This document shows, piece by piece, positions 42,154 through 51,209 of a stretch of 64,000 nt of DNA. The notes beneath the pieces were generated by a model. It saw nothing but the letters and a program-made list of their open reading frames with translations. It did not search any database and was not told the origin of the DNA. Every line of letters starts with the position of its first letter. Position 1 is the first letter of the stretch. The translations under genes were made by a program, and so were the position numbers. The stretch is taken from contig JAVSMP010000001.1 of the NCBI GenBank assembly GCA_032027145.1, positions 1,082,903-1,146,902 of the forward strand, written 5' to 3'. This DNA is from Ignavibacterium sp. (lineage in GTDB: Bacteria > Bacteroidota > Ignavibacteria > Ignavibacteriales > Ignavibacteriaceae).

Positions 42154-44616
42154 TTAAATCTTTATCAAATCAAATTTATAGCCTTTAGATTTTAGATTTT
42201 TGATAAGTTCTTCAAGTCTGTTATAAAATTTATCGGTTCGTTCAGGGCTTGTTCCGAAATGGATTAGAATATTTGTCCCGTTTAATCCATATTTATTTTC
42301 GAAGCTGATAATACTGTTAAAGATTTCGTCACTTGAACGATATTGTTTCCCCATCGAAGGAATTGTATAATCTGCGTTTGAAATGATTCCCGGAGTAAAA
42401 TTGATTATCTTTATACCAATTTCATTTGCCCAGACAGATATCGTATCGTTATACCATTCATAAGGAGGAAGAAAAATTGAAGATTGACTTTTACTTACTC
42501 CAGCTTGATCTAAAGCCCTATAATTATTTTTCAGATCAGTTAGAAATTCTTTTTTTGTGATCAATGTGGAATCCCTCTTTTCCCAATCTGCATATAACAA
42601 ATGTTTGTCCGAATGAGGACCGACATAATGACCATCGTTTTTCAATTCTTTTATTAATTCAAGATGAGATCTTACAAAATTTCCTGTAAAGAAAAAGTTT
42701 GCCTTAACATTTTCATCTCTTAAAGTTTTCATTATAATTTTTGCACCGTCATCAAATTCGTGTGCACTGAAAATAAGATGCACTTCTTTTTGTGTAGTAT
42801 CGGTTTTAATAATTCCGCCATGATTGATAACAAAACTATCATAAGATTTATTCCCTTTGTTCTGAAGCGCTGACAAGTAGTAAGTTAAGCTTGCTGTTCC
42901 ATCCATTGTTGGTTCATTAGTTGAGTAATCTCCATAATCATCGTGATAAACAACATAATTGTTTTGAAATTGTTCATATTCATCCGGGCTGTAAAGCTGT
43001 ATCCCAATAAGTTTATTATAGATAGTTGCGTAAACCGGACCATCAACCAGCCCGCCAGTAATCGGATAATTATAAAGATGTGTAAAAGCAGAATGAGGAT
43101 CAGATGGATAATCACCATTTGCCGGCAATCCGACTATCATACTTGTGCCCCACGGATTACATCCAAACAGCCAATCGCGTAATGAAGCTTCCATTTCAAG
43201 ATAGTCTTCATTACCCGAAATCTCATTATACAATCTGCATTGAGTAAGTATTGCGGAAACTAAATTATTAGAACACCAGATAAACGGGATACCTATTTGG
43301 AACGGATTATCAATACCGCGCTGATAAACTGAATCAATTCCTCTTTTCATAAACGATAAAAAAATTTCTTTTGAAGCATTAAGATCATTCTCAGCCAACA
43401 AGTAATGACCAAGATTAACGAAAGGATACCATTGATAATGCCTTGCAGTATCAGCTCCCATCCACGGGGTAATCTGCTCGCTTACTCCAAAATTAATTGC
43501 ATCAGATAAATAATTATCATCACCCGAAACATTAAATAATTGCACAGCAGCAAGTTCCATATCATCAACAAAGTTATCTTCTTCATAAAAATAAGGTGAT
43601 ACACAAGGTGCCGTCTGGCAAGCTCCGGGATTGTTCTTTCCGGTTATATACGCATCTTTAGATTTTTGATAAAATGTTTCAGACAATTCAGGATAATATT
43701 TACCAAGCAATTCTGCGGCTAAAGAAAACACAGAAGAAAACTTGCCTGCAGTTGAAGCAAGTCCCGTTGCCCTGTTCTGATATTTAAAAACTCCCTGCGG
43801 CTTTCCGGTTGCAAAATAAACAGGTCTTTCCAATCCTTTTCCATAACTTGTTGTATCTTCAGTTGGCAGTCTAAATCCGCGATGATCTCTGTCATCAGCA
43901 ATCTGATTAAACATAACATCTTTTTCGGGATTCATTTTCATCAGCCAGTCAACTCCCCATTTTGCTTCATCAAGAATATCAGGAATTCCATTTGAAGCCT
44001 TGTTTCCATCTTTGTCATACTTATCGCCAAATGCTTCCGGATTTTTTGAATATGCGAATAACATCTGATAAGCTGCATTTGCAGATGTTGTAACATACTG
44101 CAAGTAATCAGAAGCATCGTGCCAGCCGCCGACAACATTGATAAAAGTTGAATCAAGCGCCGGATGATAAATTATAAATCCATCGTGAGTGTGACAGGAA
44201 TCTTTTAAAAAGGGATTGTAACCACATCTTTGCTGACGCATATAGTTGAGCAGAAAATCAGCAGTTCCGTTATACACATCATCATCAATTCTGAAAGAAG
44301 GGGATTTAATTCCATTGCATTCGATATAAAACGCGCCTTGTATTTCAAACTCAGAAAAATCTAATCTTGCTGTTGAATTAAAAGACCATTGCGTACCGAA
44401 AGATTTTATTTTATTCGATGTAAAAACTATCTGCTCTGTCAGCGCATCCTTTATTGAAAAGTTTTCAGGTAATTTAAATTCTTTGCTGATAAAGACTGCA
44501 GCTTTAATTGATTTAGTTAAATAGCCAAGTTGGTTTATTCTTATCCAGCTCTTTTGGTCCTGCGGATAATTATTTACTATTATAAAAAAGAGCAGAAGCA
44601 AAATGATTTTTTTCAT
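42154..44616 (-). CDS. GH9 glycoside hydrolase fused to a NodB-type polysaccharide deacetylase
   Basis: 820 residues with signal peptide MKKIILLLLFFIIVNN. N-terminal Ig-like CelD_N domain (IRINQLGYLTKSIKAAVF, about 22-105), GH9 catalytic domain (about 110-590) with GGWHDASDYLQY (base Asp pair), HPHSAFTH-like PHSAFTHLYNYPITGGLVDG and the acid Glu in NEPTMDGTASLTYYLS. The CE4 domain (about 610-820) has EFDDGAKI (Asp) and GPHSDKHLLYADW (HxxxH metal site). It probably cuts and deacetylates a beta-glucan or related glycan outside the cell. Confidence 0.87.
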   Translation of the reverse strand: MKKIILLLLFFIIVNNYPQDQKSWIRINQLGYLTKSIKAAVFISKEFKLPENFSIKDALTEQIVFTSNKIKSFGTQWSFNSTARLDFSEFEIQGAFYIECNGIKSPSFRIDDDVYNGTADFLLNYMRQQRCGYNPFLKDSCHTHDGFIIYHPALDSTFINVVGGWHDASDYLQYVTTSANAAYQMLFAYSKNPEAFGDKYDKDGNKASNGIPDILDEAKWGVDWLMKMNPEKDVMFNQIADDRDHRGFRLPTEDTTSYGKGLERPVYFATGKPQGVFKYQNRATGLASTAGKFSSVFSLAAELLGKYYPELSETFYQKSKDAYITGKNNPGACQTAPCVSPYFYEEDNFVDDMELAAVQLFNVSGDDNYLSDAINFGVSEQITPWMGADTARHYQWYPFVNLGHYLLAENDLNASKEIFLSFMKRGIDSVYQRGIDNPFQIGIPFIWCSNNLVSAILTQCRLYNEISGNEDYLEMEASLRDWLFGCNPWGTSMIVGLPANGDYPSDPHSAFTHLYNYPITGGLVDGPVYATIYNKLIGIQLYSPDEYEQFQNNYVVYHDDYGDYSTNEPTMDGTASLTYYLSALQNKGNKSYDSFVINHGGIIKTDTTQKEVHLIFSAHEFDDGAKIIMKTLRDENVKANFFFTGNFVRSHLELIKELKNDGHYVGPHSDKHLLYADWEKRDSTLITKKEFLTDLKNNYRALDQAGVSKSQSSIFLPPYEWYNDTISVWANEIGIKIINFTPGIISNADYTIPSMGKQYRSSDEIFNSIISFENKYGLNGTNILIHFGTSPERTDKFYNRLEELIKNLKSKGYKFDLIKI

Positions 44617-46032: not shown

Positions 46033-46186
46033 GAAATTTGAAGATAATTGTTGCGCGATTTTTATAGGTTAATATCTGCTCTTATTAATCAGAAAAATCT
46101 GAAGAACTTGAAGTTATCTATTGCAGAAAAGCTGAATAATTTGACTTAGTCTTTTGTTAATTAAAATTCTTATAGAAACTTTCTTG

Positions 46187-47452
46187 ATGAAAACTCAAAA
46201 GAGAAATGATTCAAATAACATAACAGACAGCCGGCTCCCAATCCCCAGCCGACCTCCGGAGTTAATGGCGCCTGCCGGAGACTGGACGATGCTGCGTGCA
46301 GCAGTAAATAACGGTGCTGATGCAGTCTATTTTGGTTTGGATAAACTAAATATGCGTGCAAAAGCAAAAAACTTTACTCTTGATGATCTGAAAGAACTTA
46401 CTTCTTACTGCAAAGAAAATAATGTTACTACATACCTCACATTAAATACAATTGTTTTTGAAGAAGAACTTGAAGAACTTGAAGAAATAATTGTTGCAGC
46501 AAAAGAAAACAAAGTAGATCGAATAATCTGCTCTGATCTAGCAGCGGCTGACTTATGTTTTAAACATCAGATGCCGTTTTGTATCTCAACTCAAAGCTCA
46601 ATTTCAAATTCACTTGCTGCTGATGTTTATAAAAGAATGGGTGCTGTAAGAATAGTTCTTGCGCGTGAATGTTCACTTGAAGAGATAAAAAAAATTCGTA
46701 AAAAGACCGATCTAGAGATAGAGACTTTTATCCATGGAGCAATGTGCATTGCAATAAGTGGAAGATGTTTTATGAGTCACCATCTTTTTGGTAAGAGTGC
46801 AAACCGCGGTGAATGTGTTCAGCCGTGCAGAAGAGAGTATGAAGTTTATGATTCCGCTGCAAAAAAATCACTTCTCATTGGTGAGGATTATGTAATGTCT
46901 CCACAAGATCTTTGTACAATCGAATTTATTGATAAGTTGATTGAAGCGGGCATTGACTCTTTTAAAATCGAAGGGAGAAAACGGGCACCTGAATATGTTG
47001 CAAAGTCTGTATCTGCATATCGTCAGGCTATTGATCTTTACTTTGAAGGAAAGCTTACCGCTGCAAAGAAAAAAGAGTTGCTTACAGAACTTGAAAAAGT
47101 TTATAACCGAGGTTTTTCATCAGGATTTTATTTCAGTGTCCCAAGCTCTGAAGAATATGCCGGAGTTGAAGGAAGTAAAGCGACGACCAGAAAATCTTAT
47201 GTTGGTAAAGTTCTTAATTACTTTAAAGAAATTGGGATTGCACATATACTGATTGAATCAGGTCAGATAAAAATTGAAGATGAGTTGTTGATTATGGGCG
47301 AAACTACCGGAGTTCTTGAACTTAAACTTGAAAAAATTGTTGTTAATGATAAAGAGGGTCAAACTGCAAATCGCGGCGATGAAGTTACTTTTAAAACTCC
47401 TTCATTGGTAAGGAGAAATGATAGAGTGTATTTGATTGAACAAGTCGTTTAG
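46187..47452 (+). CDS. U32-family protein, TrhP-type tRNA hydroxylation enzyme
   Basis: 421 residues from ATG 46187; a TTG start at 46154 is possible. U32 blocks: LMAPAGDWTMLRAAVNNGADAVYFG, CSDLAAADLC, and the cysteine set CIAISGRCFMSHHLFGKSANRGECVQPCRREY that binds the 4Fe-4S cluster. A C-terminal domain follows (VGKVLNYFKEIGIAHILI, beta-barrel). Length and the extra domain fit TrhP (prephenate-dependent U34 hydroxylation) better than UbiU/UbiV. The leader before MAPAG is unusually long and proline-rich. Confidence 0.82.
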   Translation: MKTQKRNDSNNITDSRLPIPSRPPELMAPAGDWTMLRAAVNNGADAVYFGLDKLNMRAKAKNFTLDDLKELTSYCKENNVTTYLTLNTIVFEEELEELEEIIVAAKENKVDRIICSDLAAADLCFKHQMPFCISTQSSISNSLAADVYKRMGAVRIVLARECSLEEIKKIRKKTDLEIETFIHGAMCIAISGRCFMSHHLFGKSANRGECVQPCRREYEVYDSAAKKSLLIGEDYVMSPQDLCTIEFIDKLIEAGIDSFKIEGRKRAPEYVAKSVSAYRQAIDLYFEGKLTAAKKKELLTELEKVYNRGFSSGFYFSVPSSEEYAGVEGSKATTRKSYVGKVLNYFKEIGIAHILIESGQIKIEDELLIMGETTGVLELKLEKIVVNDKEGQTANRGDEVTFKTPSLVRRNDRVYLIEQVV

Positions 47453-47536: not shown

Positions 47537-48292
47537 TTAGATTATTTTTCGCTTTACCCAAAAGCGTATTCCAATTACCAGACTAAATGATATAACAGCA
47601 GGGAGAGCGATAAATAAAAGTCCTAAACCCGGAGTGTTTTTCCCGGTTGCAGGATCATAGTTAAAGCAGGAAAACAGATTATTTGGAGTTGGTAAACGAT
47701 AGGTGGGTGAAAAAACATTGTTAATACTGCTGATCAATAAGCTAATTTCTTTTTCATTTCGGAGTCCGATTAATTTTTTAGTTATGTAACCATCTGAATT
47801 TACGCCAACCAAAAGTGCATCATGATCAAATTGTTTAATTTCATCGTTCCATACCGGATTAAATCCAACAGAAGCATTAAGCTGATTAATGCTGTCGGTT
47901 ATAGCAAATTGCCAATGTTCGTTATCATTTAATTCAATCCGCTGTGCCATCAACTTCATATCTTTTAATGAATCAAGCGGATCAAAACTAATTACTAAAA
48001 CATAATAGTTTTTGTTTCTGCCGGAAGTGATATGTTGTAGATTTTCCATCAACTGAAAAAGTAAAGGACTGCATACACCTGTGCATCTGGTAAAAATCAG
48101 TGCAACAATTAATGGTCTTTTAGCGGCAAGCTGATGCAGATAAATATCTTCTCCGTTTATTAGTTTTAACGGAGCATTTGATATACTATCATAAATATTG
48201 GTTTCTTCACTCCAAGCAGGTGTTTGAGATTGAACGATACTGACCGCGGCAAAAACAAAAATCAGGAACGAGAAAATAAAATGCTTAAACAT
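47537..48292 (-). CDS. SCO1/SenC copper chaperone with C-terminal membrane anchor
   Basis: 251 residues with an N-terminal signal segment (FIFSFLIFVFAAVSIVQSQ). SCO fold: VALIFTRCTGVCSPLLFQLMENL has the CxxxC copper site and DHDALLVGVNSDG the conserved His. A C-terminal hydrophobic helix (LGLLFIALPAVISFSLVIGIRFW) is an extra anchor. SenC loads CuA in the oxidase subunit II. Third in the cluster after the subunit II and I genes and overlapping the subunit I gene by about 31 bases, as in norS-norY-senC clusters. Confidence 0.87.
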   Translation of the reverse strand: MFKHFIFSFLIFVFAAVSIVQSQTPAWSEETNIYDSISNAPLKLINGEDIYLHQLAAKRPLIVALIFTRCTGVCSPLLFQLMENLQHITSGRNKNYYVLVISFDPLDSLKDMKLMAQRIELNDNEHWQFAITDSINQLNASVGFNPVWNDEIKQFDHDALLVGVNSDGYITKKLIGLRNEKEISLLISSINNVFSPTYRLPTPNNLFSCFNYDPATGKNTPGLGLLFIALPAVISFSLVIGIRFWVKRKII

Positions 48293-49701
48293 CTGTTAGA
48301 TATATTTACAAAAAGAATTAAAATTCCAACCAGATAAACTGAAGCAAAAGCAGCGCCTATAGTTGCAAGTAATTTAGCACTTGTAAATGCATCGGGATAG
48401 TCGCTATATCTTCTTGGTATAGAATCAGCGCCGCCTACATAGAAAGCTAATAAAAAGCCTATCCCGCCCACTACAATAAATAAAAGTTTAAGTGTGGAAA
48501 ACCTGTCATTAGTTTTACTATTAGTATATTGTTTAGAAAACCAATAAAAGAAAGCAAGACTAAAAAGCACATTTCCCAAAGCATTGTATGTATGGAAATG
48601 AGCAGGCACCCAAAGTGTATTATGCAAAACAAAATTATTTGAAATAGTAGCATCAATAACAGCGCCTATTCCTCCAATTACCCAACCGACTACTCCGATG
48701 AAAAATAAAAGATTTGGTAATGACCAATTAATTTTTTTCCGAAACACTGAAACAATAACACTAAATACAGTTACTCCTGCTGCCGGTAAGCTGGCTGAGT
48801 AAGATGCAATCTGCCCGATAATCTGAAATCCTTCAGGCTGAACAAAATCCATATACAAGTGATGGAAAAATGCTGTCAATATAAAGATCAAAGTAAAGTT
48901 CCAGGCTAATGCAACATACCAGGTAGTTTTCCATTTTGGCTGACCGCTTATCTCTGAGAACAATTCATATAAAATTGCCAAACCCAGGTACAACATCTCA
49001 TTAGCGAGTGTATGTCCGAAAAAATAGGTTAGATTTTTCATCAACAGCGCATCATTCACAAAGCTGCCGTTTGAATAATACTCTGAAAAAAGTAAAACCA
49101 ACAAAACCACGGCTGCAATTAAACAGGTAATTATACCAACCAGACTTATCATTGAGATCAAAACAAAAGGAGGAGTTTCAACTTTAGGATTTTTTTTAAA
49201 ATGCTGCCATGCAAACACCTGAGGTATCGAGTATTTTTTTAACAATGCTGTAACCATACTTAAACACCAAATCAACCAGCCAACGCCAAAAGTTGTTAGT
49301 GAAAATAAAAATAAAGGTGTTGCCCAAGCACTCCACATTATTTTAAATGGCAGAGGATAAAGAAAAGTCCAACCGGCATGAAAATTTCCAATAAGTGTCG
49401 AAGTCCATAACATTAGTATGCCAGCAATTGTTAAAACCAAAGCCAGCAGATTTGCCAAATAGCTTGTTTTAACATATCGTTCCATAATAAAGTTTATCCC
49501 CGCCATTCCCGCAACAAACCATATCCCAATCATAGTAAGTCCGTGAATGGTCATATCAGTATAAAAAGTGACAGGGGATAAACTAATAACCGCACCTTGG
49601 TTTAATCGCATGATAATGCCAAGTATAATGCTTAATACGAACAACACCAGTATAGTTATAATCCAAAAAGCTGTATTTTTTTTTAATAAAATGTTTTCCA
49701 T
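48262..49701 (-). CDS. Haem-copper oxidase superfamily subunit I, probable sNOR-type NO reductase
   Basis: 479 residues, start ATG 49701 (TTG 49719 in frame), about 12-13 membrane helices. Haem ligand HGLTMIGIW, CuB ligands FFGHTLANEMLYLG and FFHHLYMDF, and VPAHFHTYNALGNVLF for the high- and low-spin haems. The helix VI residue four after the first CuB His is Asn rather than the cross-linked Tyr of oxidases. This, with a CuA subunit II and SenC neighbours, points to the B-family-related sNOR nitric oxide reductases. Oxygen reduction cannot be ruled out. Confidence 0.8.
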   Translation of the reverse strand: MENILLKKNTAFWIITILVLFVLSIILGIIMRLNQGAVISLSPVTFYTDMTIHGLTMIGIWFVAGMAGINFIMERYVKTSYLANLLALVLTIAGILMLWTSTLIGNFHAGWTFLYPLPFKIMWSAWATPLFLFSLTTFGVGWLIWCLSMVTALLKKYSIPQVFAWQHFKKNPKVETPPFVLISMISLVGIITCLIAAVVLLVLLFSEYYSNGSFVNDALLMKNLTYFFGHTLANEMLYLGLAILYELFSEISGQPKWKTTWYVALAWNFTLIFILTAFFHHLYMDFVQPEGFQIIGQIASYSASLPAAGVTVFSVIVSVFRKKINWSLPNLLFFIGVVGWVIGGIGAVIDATISNNFVLHNTLWVPAHFHTYNALGNVLFSLAFFYWFSKQYTNSKTNDRFSTLKLLFIVVGGIGFLLAFYVGGADSIPRRYSDYPDAFTSAKLLATIGAAFASVYLVGILILFVNISNRCLSILFSRS

Positions 49702-49708
49702 AATAATC

Positions 49709-50260
49709 TCATTTAACAATAAAAGAAGTTTTCATCACCTGATGCGCCATTCCGCAATATTCCAGACAATATACATCATAATTGCCAGGTTCGGTAAATT
49801 TCCAACGCAGTCTGTTGACATAACCAGGCATTGCCTGGGTTTGAGCAATTAATTCATTTGCAGAGTTATAAATTGCAAAGCCATGATTTACATCAAAGCT
49901 TGTAACTCTAAACTCTACTAACTCATCAACCGGAATATCAATTGAAGTTTCACCAGTTGGATTATCAGGATTTATTGCTTGATTAGACATTATAAAATAA
50001 AATTGCTTTGAAGCCACATGGATGATCTTTGCGGGTTGTTCATCTGCAAAAATAAAGTATGGTGATTTCGGAATTGTAATTGATGCAAATATTGCCAATA
50101 CTATAAACAGAATCAGTATAAACCAGAACCGTTTTTGTAATGCATTCTGCATACCGTTTTGAATTTGTTCATCTCTTTTTGATGACAGAAATACATAAGT
50201 AAATATAATTATGATAATTCCTGTTAGAATGAGAAATAACAATAGAAGAGAATTCTGCAT
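49709..50260 (-). CDS. Haem-copper oxidase subunit II with CuA centre (NorS-like)
   Basis: 183 residues. One or two N-terminal membrane segments (LLLLFLILTGIIIIIFTYVFL and WFILILFIVLAIFASI), then the cupredoxin CuA domain. Ligands are complete: VNHGF (His), CLEYCGMAHQVM (Cys, Glu, Cys, His, Met). The subunit takes electrons from cytochrome c or cupredoxin in the periplasm and passes them to subunit I. It is first of the minus-strand cluster, eight bases before the subunit I start. Confidence 0.88.
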   Translation of the reverse strand: MQNSLLLLFLILTGIIIIIFTYVFLSSKRDEQIQNGMQNALQKRFWFILILFIVLAIFASITIPKSPYFIFADEQPAKIIHVASKQFYFIMSNQAINPDNPTGETSIDIPVDELVEFRVTSFDVNHGFAIYNSANELIAQTQAMPGYVNRLRWKFTEPGNYDVYCLEYCGMAHQVMKTSFIVK

Positions 50261-50513
50261 AACTAATTAGAATATAAATTCAAATAAAATTGTGGATGAT
50301 TTAATGACATTGTGTACAAACATATCGAAATTTTTAATTCGGACAAAATTGTCTGGAAATAGAAAAAGTGTTATATGACTAAAATCATTTTATGATTTGC
50401 CGAAAAGCTCTAAGTGTTAGATTAATCACGAAAAGTTTAATTGGTGTTATAAATACAGAAGTAACTTACACTATATTTAAACTAATAGAAGAAGTATTTA
50501 TCAAAATAAACAG

Positions 50514-51209
50514 ATGAAACAATTACAAACTTTTGCAGAAAAGGCTATTGCATTTAACCAAGATTTAAAGTATTCAGGAAAACTCCCTGATGATTTTCAA
50601 GTGTTGAATCCATTTTTAGATAATCCGGAAACAATGCAGGTAATGCAAAAATTTTATTATAAATTTTATAATGATAACAAACAGAGGAAATTTATTATCG
50701 GAATAAATCCAAGCAGACATGGGGCAGGCATTACAGGAGTACCCTTTACTGATACAAAGCGCCTGGAATTAGTTTGTGGTATTCCGATGCGCTCGGCTTA
50801 CAGTCATGAAGTTTCCTCAGTTTTTATGTACGAAATGATTGAAGCATTTGGCGGAGTGAAGAACTTTTATAAAAATTTTTATATCAATTCACCTTTCCCT
50901 TTAGCAATAGTCAGGAAAACAAAGAACGGGAAGTGGCTTAATGTTAATTATTATGATGATAAAAATCTTTTTGATAGTGTGAAAGATTTTATGATTGCCT
51001 CACTTAAAAAACATATTAATCTTGGATTGGATATAACAAAGGTTTTTATATTGGGAAAAAAAAACGCTGACTTTATTCAGATAATAAACAAAGAACAAAA
51101 AATGTTCGGAGAGCTGATTGTGCTGGAGCATCCAAGGTTTATTCAACAGTATAAATCGAAAGAAAAACAGTTATATATTGATAAATATATTTCAGCATTA
51201 AAAAGATAA
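50514..51209 (+). CDS. SMUG2-like uracil-DNA glycosylase family protein
   Basis: 231 residues. The UDG-superfamily motif 1 is IIGINPSRHGAGITGVPFTDTKRL (GINPSxxGAxxTGxPFTD), and motif 2 is near VLEHPRFIQQYKSK (HPxF, where SMUG has HPS). VFMYEMIEAFGG and FYINSPFPLA are typical of the SMUG2-like/DUF4918 group. It would excise uracil or other damaged bases in DNA. It lies next to, and divergent from, the oxidase cluster. It may form an operon with the DUF488 gene 29 bases on. Confidence 0.85.
   Translation: MKQLQTFAEKAIAFNQDLKYSGKLPDDFQVLNPFLDNPETMQVMQKFYYKFYNDNKQRKFIIGINPSRHGAGITGVPFTDTKRLELVCGIPMRSAYSHEVSSVFMYEMIEAFGGVKNFYKNFYINSPFPLAIVRKTKNGKWLNVNYYDDKNLFDSVKDFMIASLKKHINLGLDITKVFILGKKNADFIQIINKEQKMFGELIVLEHPRFIQQYKSKEKQLYIDKYISALKR

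Follow-up and report, generated by a model that had tools for sequence, protein, structure and literature searches.

Does the operon at positions 47537-50260 of the window, the whole stretch of 64,000 nucleotides of Ignavibacterium sp. DNA analysed here, encode a cytochrome oxidase, as annotation models would have it, or a nitric oxide (NO) reductase of the sNOR type, as the original prediction proposed? Gene content, active-site residues, phylogeny and the other nitrogen and oxygen genes of the genome bear on this question and are considered in turn.

Gene content of the operon

Three minus-strand open reading frames, with overlaps of 11 and 31 bases, fill the region; they therefore look like one operon, transcribed in the order CuA subunit II, subunit I and SCO/SenC-like protein. 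Its neighbours seem unrelated: a U32-peptidase-like gene (judged by eye; 46154-47452) converges on the operon, the gene at 50514-51209 diverges from it, and neither orf1 nor a nitrite/formate transporter gene adjoins it. The minus strand of the window also carries, at 42154-44616, a gene for an 820-aa glycoside hydrolase-like protein with a C-terminal polysaccharide-deacetylase-like part (by eye). The gene order had been equated with that of the nor cluster of ammonia oxidisers, norSY-senC-orf1 (PMC4940428); the order II-I-SenC is indeed present, but orf1 is missing, and the order is not specific to sNOR, bNOR having the same one. Formate/nitrite-transporter(-like) genes, absent from the window, were observed near the NOR genes of six other loci from several branches (L018, L019, L020, L078, L079 and L080).

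Subunit II (49709..50260, minus strand; 183 aa) is a NorS/CoxB-like CuA cupredoxin that matches the COX2 Pfam model with 32 bits. The CuA motif CLEYCGMAHQVM plus His126 is present, and the CuA ligands H126, C165, E167, C169, H173 and M176 are invariant in 12 aligned sequences. Two separate N-terminal hydrophobic segments (residues 1-29 and 39-72) provide two putative membrane anchors; Thermomicrobium subunit II also has two such segments, and the Ruegeria protein has one anchor from its annotated start and gains a second from an upstream start (by eye). The eight B-family subunits II compared showed one anchor, or overlapping windows of one.

Subunit I (48262..49719, minus strand) comprises 485 aa when read from the TTG at 49719, from which residues are numbered here, or 479 aa if it starts at the ATG at 49701, and it matches the COX1 Pfam model with 182 bits. 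The AlphaFold2 model of this NorY-like haem-copper catalytic subunit, built from 40 alignment rows (pLDDT 91.3, pTM 0.92), displays the general haem-copper fold with 12 long helices, predicted to be transmembrane. Chains of the A family head both structure-match lists, so the fold cannot tell an oxidase from a NOR; that no NOR chain stands among the 50 matches listed in either list carries no weight either way. The third protein (47537..48292, minus strand; 251 aa) resembles SCO/SenC copper chaperones, with a CTGVC motif and a hydrophobic C-terminal segment that probably forms a membrane helix; it is termed SCO-like here, its SCO1-SenC Pfam score of 20.6 bits lying slightly below the cut-off of 22.8. 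The only NCBIfam models that match subunit I are those of cytochrome oxidases, every score being far below cut-off, so that automatic annotation would give cytochrome oxidase or nothing; the misannotation foreseen in the original prediction is thus a real risk.

Active site of subunit I

The six metal-ligand histidines H59, H236, H286, H287, H374 and H376 are all present and are conserved in the aligned relatives. The active-site stretch of helix VI (48967..49014, minus strand) reads GHTLANEMLY, with the first CuB histidine H236 followed by N240 at +4, E241 at +5 and Y244 at +8, and extends to Y251. The earlier reading of Asn (HTLAN) in place of the cross-linked Tyr of oxidases extends to the whole group: position +4 is Asn in 106/106 aligned rows of the Asn group and Tyr in 31/31 oxidases (21/21 of the A family and 10/10 of the B family). 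These rows had been gathered by overall similarity or by helix VII and X patterns, independently of the helix VI motif, and the count is therefore not circular. A tyrosine supplied from another helix, as in cbb3 oxidases, was not found either: the CcoN Tyr of the single C-family row (L138) has I280 as its counterpart, and no conserved Tyr is listed at this helix VII place for the aligned Asn-group rows. Plasmids of Variovorax, Mesorhizobium and Caballeronia (L145, L146 and L147) carry B-family oxidases whose helix VI reads LHAIVY instead of GHP.VY; these are flanked by c-type cytochromes, and one adjoins an NnrS gene.

Two helix VI tyrosines, Y244 (+8) and Y251 (+15), are invariant in the Asn group. 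The former has no counterpart in the 31 aligned oxidases, and the latter aligns with Tyr248 of Thermus ba3, a residue common to ba3 oxidases. Comparison with Tyr248, Thr312, Ser309 and Tyr244 of the Thermus enzyme, which we take to be K-path residues, indicates that two are kept, T317 aligning with Thr312, and that two, Ser309 and Tyr244, are lost. As regards protons, sNOR is listed with no proton channels (PMC8756737 Table A4), yet it is described as electrogenic (PMC8906906).

Glu241 is confined to one clade, referred to here as the NE clade: Glu stands at +5 in 68 aligned rows, being fixed in 68/68 rows of the window's clade, and Ile, Ala, Leu, Val or Ser in the other 38. The active-site position of cNOR and qNOR is Glu (PMC8756737 Table A4); an identity with these enzymes fails on this residue, the window protein having Asn at +4 and its Glu at +5. 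It is conceivable, if doubtful, that the NE clade is a separate subfamily of NOR whose Glu241, beside Asn240, brings a carboxylate close to the active site like the glutamates of cNOR. This would amount to a further, convergent NO-reducing centre, perhaps using another proton route or non-haem metal.

Phylogeny and distribution

The kinship of subunit I was analysed in an unrooted tree of 61 rows, hand-chosen for spread from a larger alignment and consisting of 43 Asn rows, 10 B-family and 8 A-family oxidases, with bNOR, eNOR, gNOR and nNOR not included. A branch with 100/100 support (bootstrap/SH-aLRT) separates the 43 Asn rows from the oxidases of both families, and the same groups were recovered in a quick preliminary tree. 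Included in the Asn clade are the sNOR of Ruegeria pomeroyi, formerly Silicibacter pomeroyi (PMC8756737 Table A4 gives Silicibacter as an sNOR whose active-site residue is N), and two subunits I from genomes bearing AmoA, which was present in 2 of 10 genomes tested (G596 and G356); these two are therefore regarded as norY of ammonia oxidisers. Ruegeria and the ammonia oxidisers share a 100/100 branch of 9 rows, to which the 33-row branch containing the window (100/99) is sister, and within the latter the window belongs to a 100/100 branch of 17 rows, which are all the rows of the tree with Glu at +5. The window protein thus groups with Ruegeria sNOR and norY and not within the ba3 oxidases, as had been expected; of the proposed kinship to the ammonia-oxidiser cluster, membership of the same sNOR clade stands, but the window falls outside the ammonia-oxidiser branch proper, in a lineage sister to it. 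With regard to the rows used, L003 and L017 had no usable subunit I ORF and were left out, L002 and L004 duplicate the window, and incomplete or broken rows, including L006, L009, L015, L019, L037, L050, L055, L083, L095 and L100, were read only as far as they were open.

Among plasmid records, the best matches of subunit I came from Ruegeria pomeroyi DSS-3, Parasedimentitalea marina and Thermomicrobium roseum (E 6e-54 to 1e-52), below which there was a sharp drop to oxidases. The Ruegeria locus has an Rrf2 regulator gene upstream and then runs through genes for subunit II, subunit I, SCO, a hypothetical protein and a formate/nitrite transporter. Of the 395 genomes sampled from the phylum, 6 gave a match with E no higher than 4e-178 and the next-best E value in any genome was 4e-31, a gap that marks the family as sharply bounded, with the proviso that a loose first pass selects what is scored and some members may be missed. 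In the class sample, 13/245 genomes were positive at E 1e-40 or better, and no match to the gene was obtained in the 13 other genomes of the same family, so that its distribution appears patchy. The closest relative is Ignavibacteriota bacterium IGN3 (95%). The operon also occurs in two named strains of the clade whose genomes are not MAGs, Gelidibacter japonicus Bio7-1 and Cerina litoralis F89. The gene was also present in 9/399 genomes of the order of a Burkholderiales MAG (G290, carrying locus L094). Among the 80 best loci from the species collection, subunit II was found as a neighbour in 74 and SCO in 79; the SCO gene does not adjoin subunit I in two of these 79 (L057 and L077), and in the six loci without subunit II the contig starts at or shortly before subunit I.

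The window's clade is drawn mostly from Bacteroidota/Ignavibacteriota, with some members from Methylomirabilota, Acidobacteriota, Binatota and Verrucomicrobiota. In Ca. Methylomirabilis, norSY/sNOR has been named and is transcribed, the enzyme being called cytochrome c-oxidising and electrogenic (PMC8906906); the Methylomirabilis protein L077 belongs to the window's clade, although it may differ from the product of the published norSY gene. Members of the clade have therefore likely been called sNOR before, and no new family is claimed: with this sNOR-type operon, the Ignavibacteriota genome contributes a new member of a kind already known. In the extracts retrieved by limited literature searches (sNOR with Ignavibacterium, nNOR, and sNOR with Bacteroid/nosZ), no description of the window's clade was found, nor, for sNOR and nNOR, one of Glu next to Asn.

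Proposed function and comparison with known systems

COX1 matches in the owner's genome are limited to three, namely the window subunit I, the subunit I of a caa3-like oxidase that has an SCO of its own (L001) and an NnrS-like protein of 155 aa; hence neither a full-length cNOR or qNOR nor any other full-length NorB-like protein was found among them. The genome harbours a clade II nosZ together with nosL-, nosD-, ATP-binding and permease-like genes (accessory names by eye) as well as nrfA. Neither nirK nor nirS was found in it, which suggests that the owner has no dedicated NO source of its own. Among relatives, for which 53 of the 80-odd loci were submitted to the nosZ search and L025 was left out, nosZ scored above cut-off in 38 of the 52 genomes or records with the gene (34/40 in the NE clade and 4/12 outside it). 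In the class sample, nosZ occurs in 90/245 genomes overall, 9/13 with the gene as compared to 81/232 without it (one-sided p 0.015, the relatives not being independent), and 4 of these 13 show no nosZ above cut-off. Since nirK was above cut-off in 7 of the 26 NE-clade genomes tested, the gene co-occurs more with N2O reduction than with copper nitrite reductase. About 5-20 kb away from nosZ (G000:C1 ~3,399,000-3,412,000; L115), the minus strand carries a run of genes that resembles a nitrosative-stress cluster. It includes ScdA_N/hemerythrin (RIC-like), DUF1858/DUF2249 and COX1-like/NnrS-like proteins; DUF59-like, NADH dehydrogenase-like, AhpD-like and Crp/Fnr-like genes were recognised by eye. 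In L025, L044, L062 and L082, the NOR genes have homologues of part of this set as neighbours (matched by eye).

Taken all together, the Asn in place of Tyr, the tree position with Ruegeria and norY, the 12-helix subunit I and the two-anchor subunit II support the original reading as a probable sNOR, and the operon probably encodes an NO reductase of the sNOR family fed by cytochrome c (or a cupredoxin). From the genes, metal ligands, Asn, tree place and nosZ/nrfA, we infer its substrate, electron donor and physiology as follows. Electrons would enter at the CuA centre of subunit II, loaded with copper by the SCO protein, and pass to the low-spin haem (H59 and H376) and on to the haem/metal centre, with H374 as ligand for the haem and H236, H286 and H287 for CuB, where two molecules of NO would be joined to N2O. 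Asn240 in place of the oxidase Tyr should impair the radical-forming chemistry of O-O cleavage, whereas NO reduction, which needs no such Tyr, would stay possible. The N2O would be handed to the clade II NosZ, and the pair may thus clear NO that comes from outside the cell or from a side activity of NrfA. NO as the substrate is suggested by the missing cross-linked Tyr, the link with nosZ and the NOR nature of the characterised families without this Tyr: cNOR, qNOR, bNOR and eNOR are called biochemically characterised (PMC11388526) and have a residue other than Tyr at the place in question (PMC8756737 Table A4). Moreover, norSY is treated as an NO reductase in the literature (PMC6478695, PMC4940428).

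The sNOR genes of Nitrosomonas europaea were 2.7-10.8-fold up under O2 limitation and a high-affinity terminal oxidase was proposed, it being pointed out that NorY is without the NorB glutamates and that the evidence for NO reduction in Nitrococcus is indirect (PMC6967387). A high-affinity oxygen reductase that works without the cross-linked Tyr under microoxic conditions is accordingly an explanation to be weighed for the window operon, the more so as Tyr244 lies one turn below Asn240 and might stand in for the missing residue, and as the caa3-like oxidase indicates that the owner probably respires O2. We consider this unlikely given that there is no Tyr at the A/B or the cbb3 position, that the gene is associated with nosZ, and that cNOR, qNOR, bNOR and eNOR all do without Tyr at that place (PMC11388526, PMC8756737 Table A4). 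Assignment to another named class of Asn-type NOR, i.e., bNOR or nNOR, would change the name and not the function. The nNOR class exists (PMC11388526), and bNOR likewise has Asn and a SenC neighbour (PMC8756737, PMC3475470), so that these two features by themselves cannot name the family; but bNOR combines a 13-helix subunit I with a one-anchor subunit II (PMC3475470) where the window has 12 and two, and grouping with the sNOR of Ruegeria and ammonia oxidisers, in a tree without bNOR and nNOR, makes either assignment improbable. An ordinary ba3-type oxidase, with which the operon shares the fold and the matches to oxidase annotation models, is refuted with near certainty by Asn at +4 and by the 100/100 branch that separates it from the 10 B-family oxidases.

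Upstream of the operon, a palindrome, GGACAAAATTGTCT (50341..50354, no strand assigned), lies 81 bases before the ATG of subunit II and may be an NsrR-like regulator site, which we regard as a weak lead. The exact GACAA-N2-TTGTC dyad of this palindrome (RGACAANNTTGTCY) occurs in 6/57 upstream regions, the window included, as compared to at most 4 in any of 30 mononucleotide shuffles, and a GACA(A)-N-(T)TGTC palindrome is found about 80-190 bases before subunit II in the window, L042, L046, L051, L058, L060, L062 and L074. In 12/57 NE loci an Rrf2 gene with three Cys is found in the vicinity of the operon, and 4 of the 7 loci with the palindrome also have Rrf2 (p 0.03, uncorrected). The full pattern has one exact copy in the genome, about one being expected, and a reversed control pattern is commoner (91 vs 25, up to one mismatch). 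No Crp/Fnr-type site was clearly above chance in the 59 regions upstream of subunit II. Two of the five Rrf2 regulator genes of the owner's genome lie beside the nos cluster (G000:C1:3387462-3387836) and about 2.5 kb from nrfA (3367111-3367491), respectively.

In anammox reactors, members of this group are regarded as N2O sinks that do not denitrify; one study reported Ignavibacteriaceae bins carrying clade II nosZ and nirBD/nrfAH, and the only NOR genes it quantified were cnorB and qnorB (PMC10982107). If the sNOR is active, some members of the group, such as the owner of the window, would both make N2O from NO and consume it, a capacity that standard annotation would hide. The disputed role of sNOR in NO or O2 reduction would, furthermore, become testable in organisms with nosZ and no other NOR.

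Of the known systems, Thermus thermophilus ba3 shares with the window the fold, the six histidines and the counterparts of Y251 and T317, and differs in its Tyr at H+4 and in Ser309 and Tyr244, which the window has not kept. The bNOR (qCuANOR type I) of Bacillus azotoformans, for which NO reduction was demonstrated biochemically, has Asn, a CuA subunit II and SenC, and differs in its 13-helix subunit I and single-anchor subunit II as compared to 12 and two in the window (PMC3475470). The same source sets 'type II' qCuANOR, with 12 helices and two anchors, against type I and ba3; this B. azotoformans system (BAZO_04705/04710) shares Asn, the 12-helix subunit I, the two-anchor subunit II and the SenC neighbour with the window, according to its published description, and has an extra gene for 4-5 helices. 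The sNOR/NorSY-SenC of ammonia oxidisers and Ruegeria has the same CuA subunit II, subunit I and SCO, Asn at the Tyr site and a place in the same clade. Identity to these is only about 30-35%, the window belonging to its separate 100/99 lineage, and the residue after the Asn is Glu in the window whereas it is Ala or Ser in the ammonia-oxidiser/Ruegeria branch.
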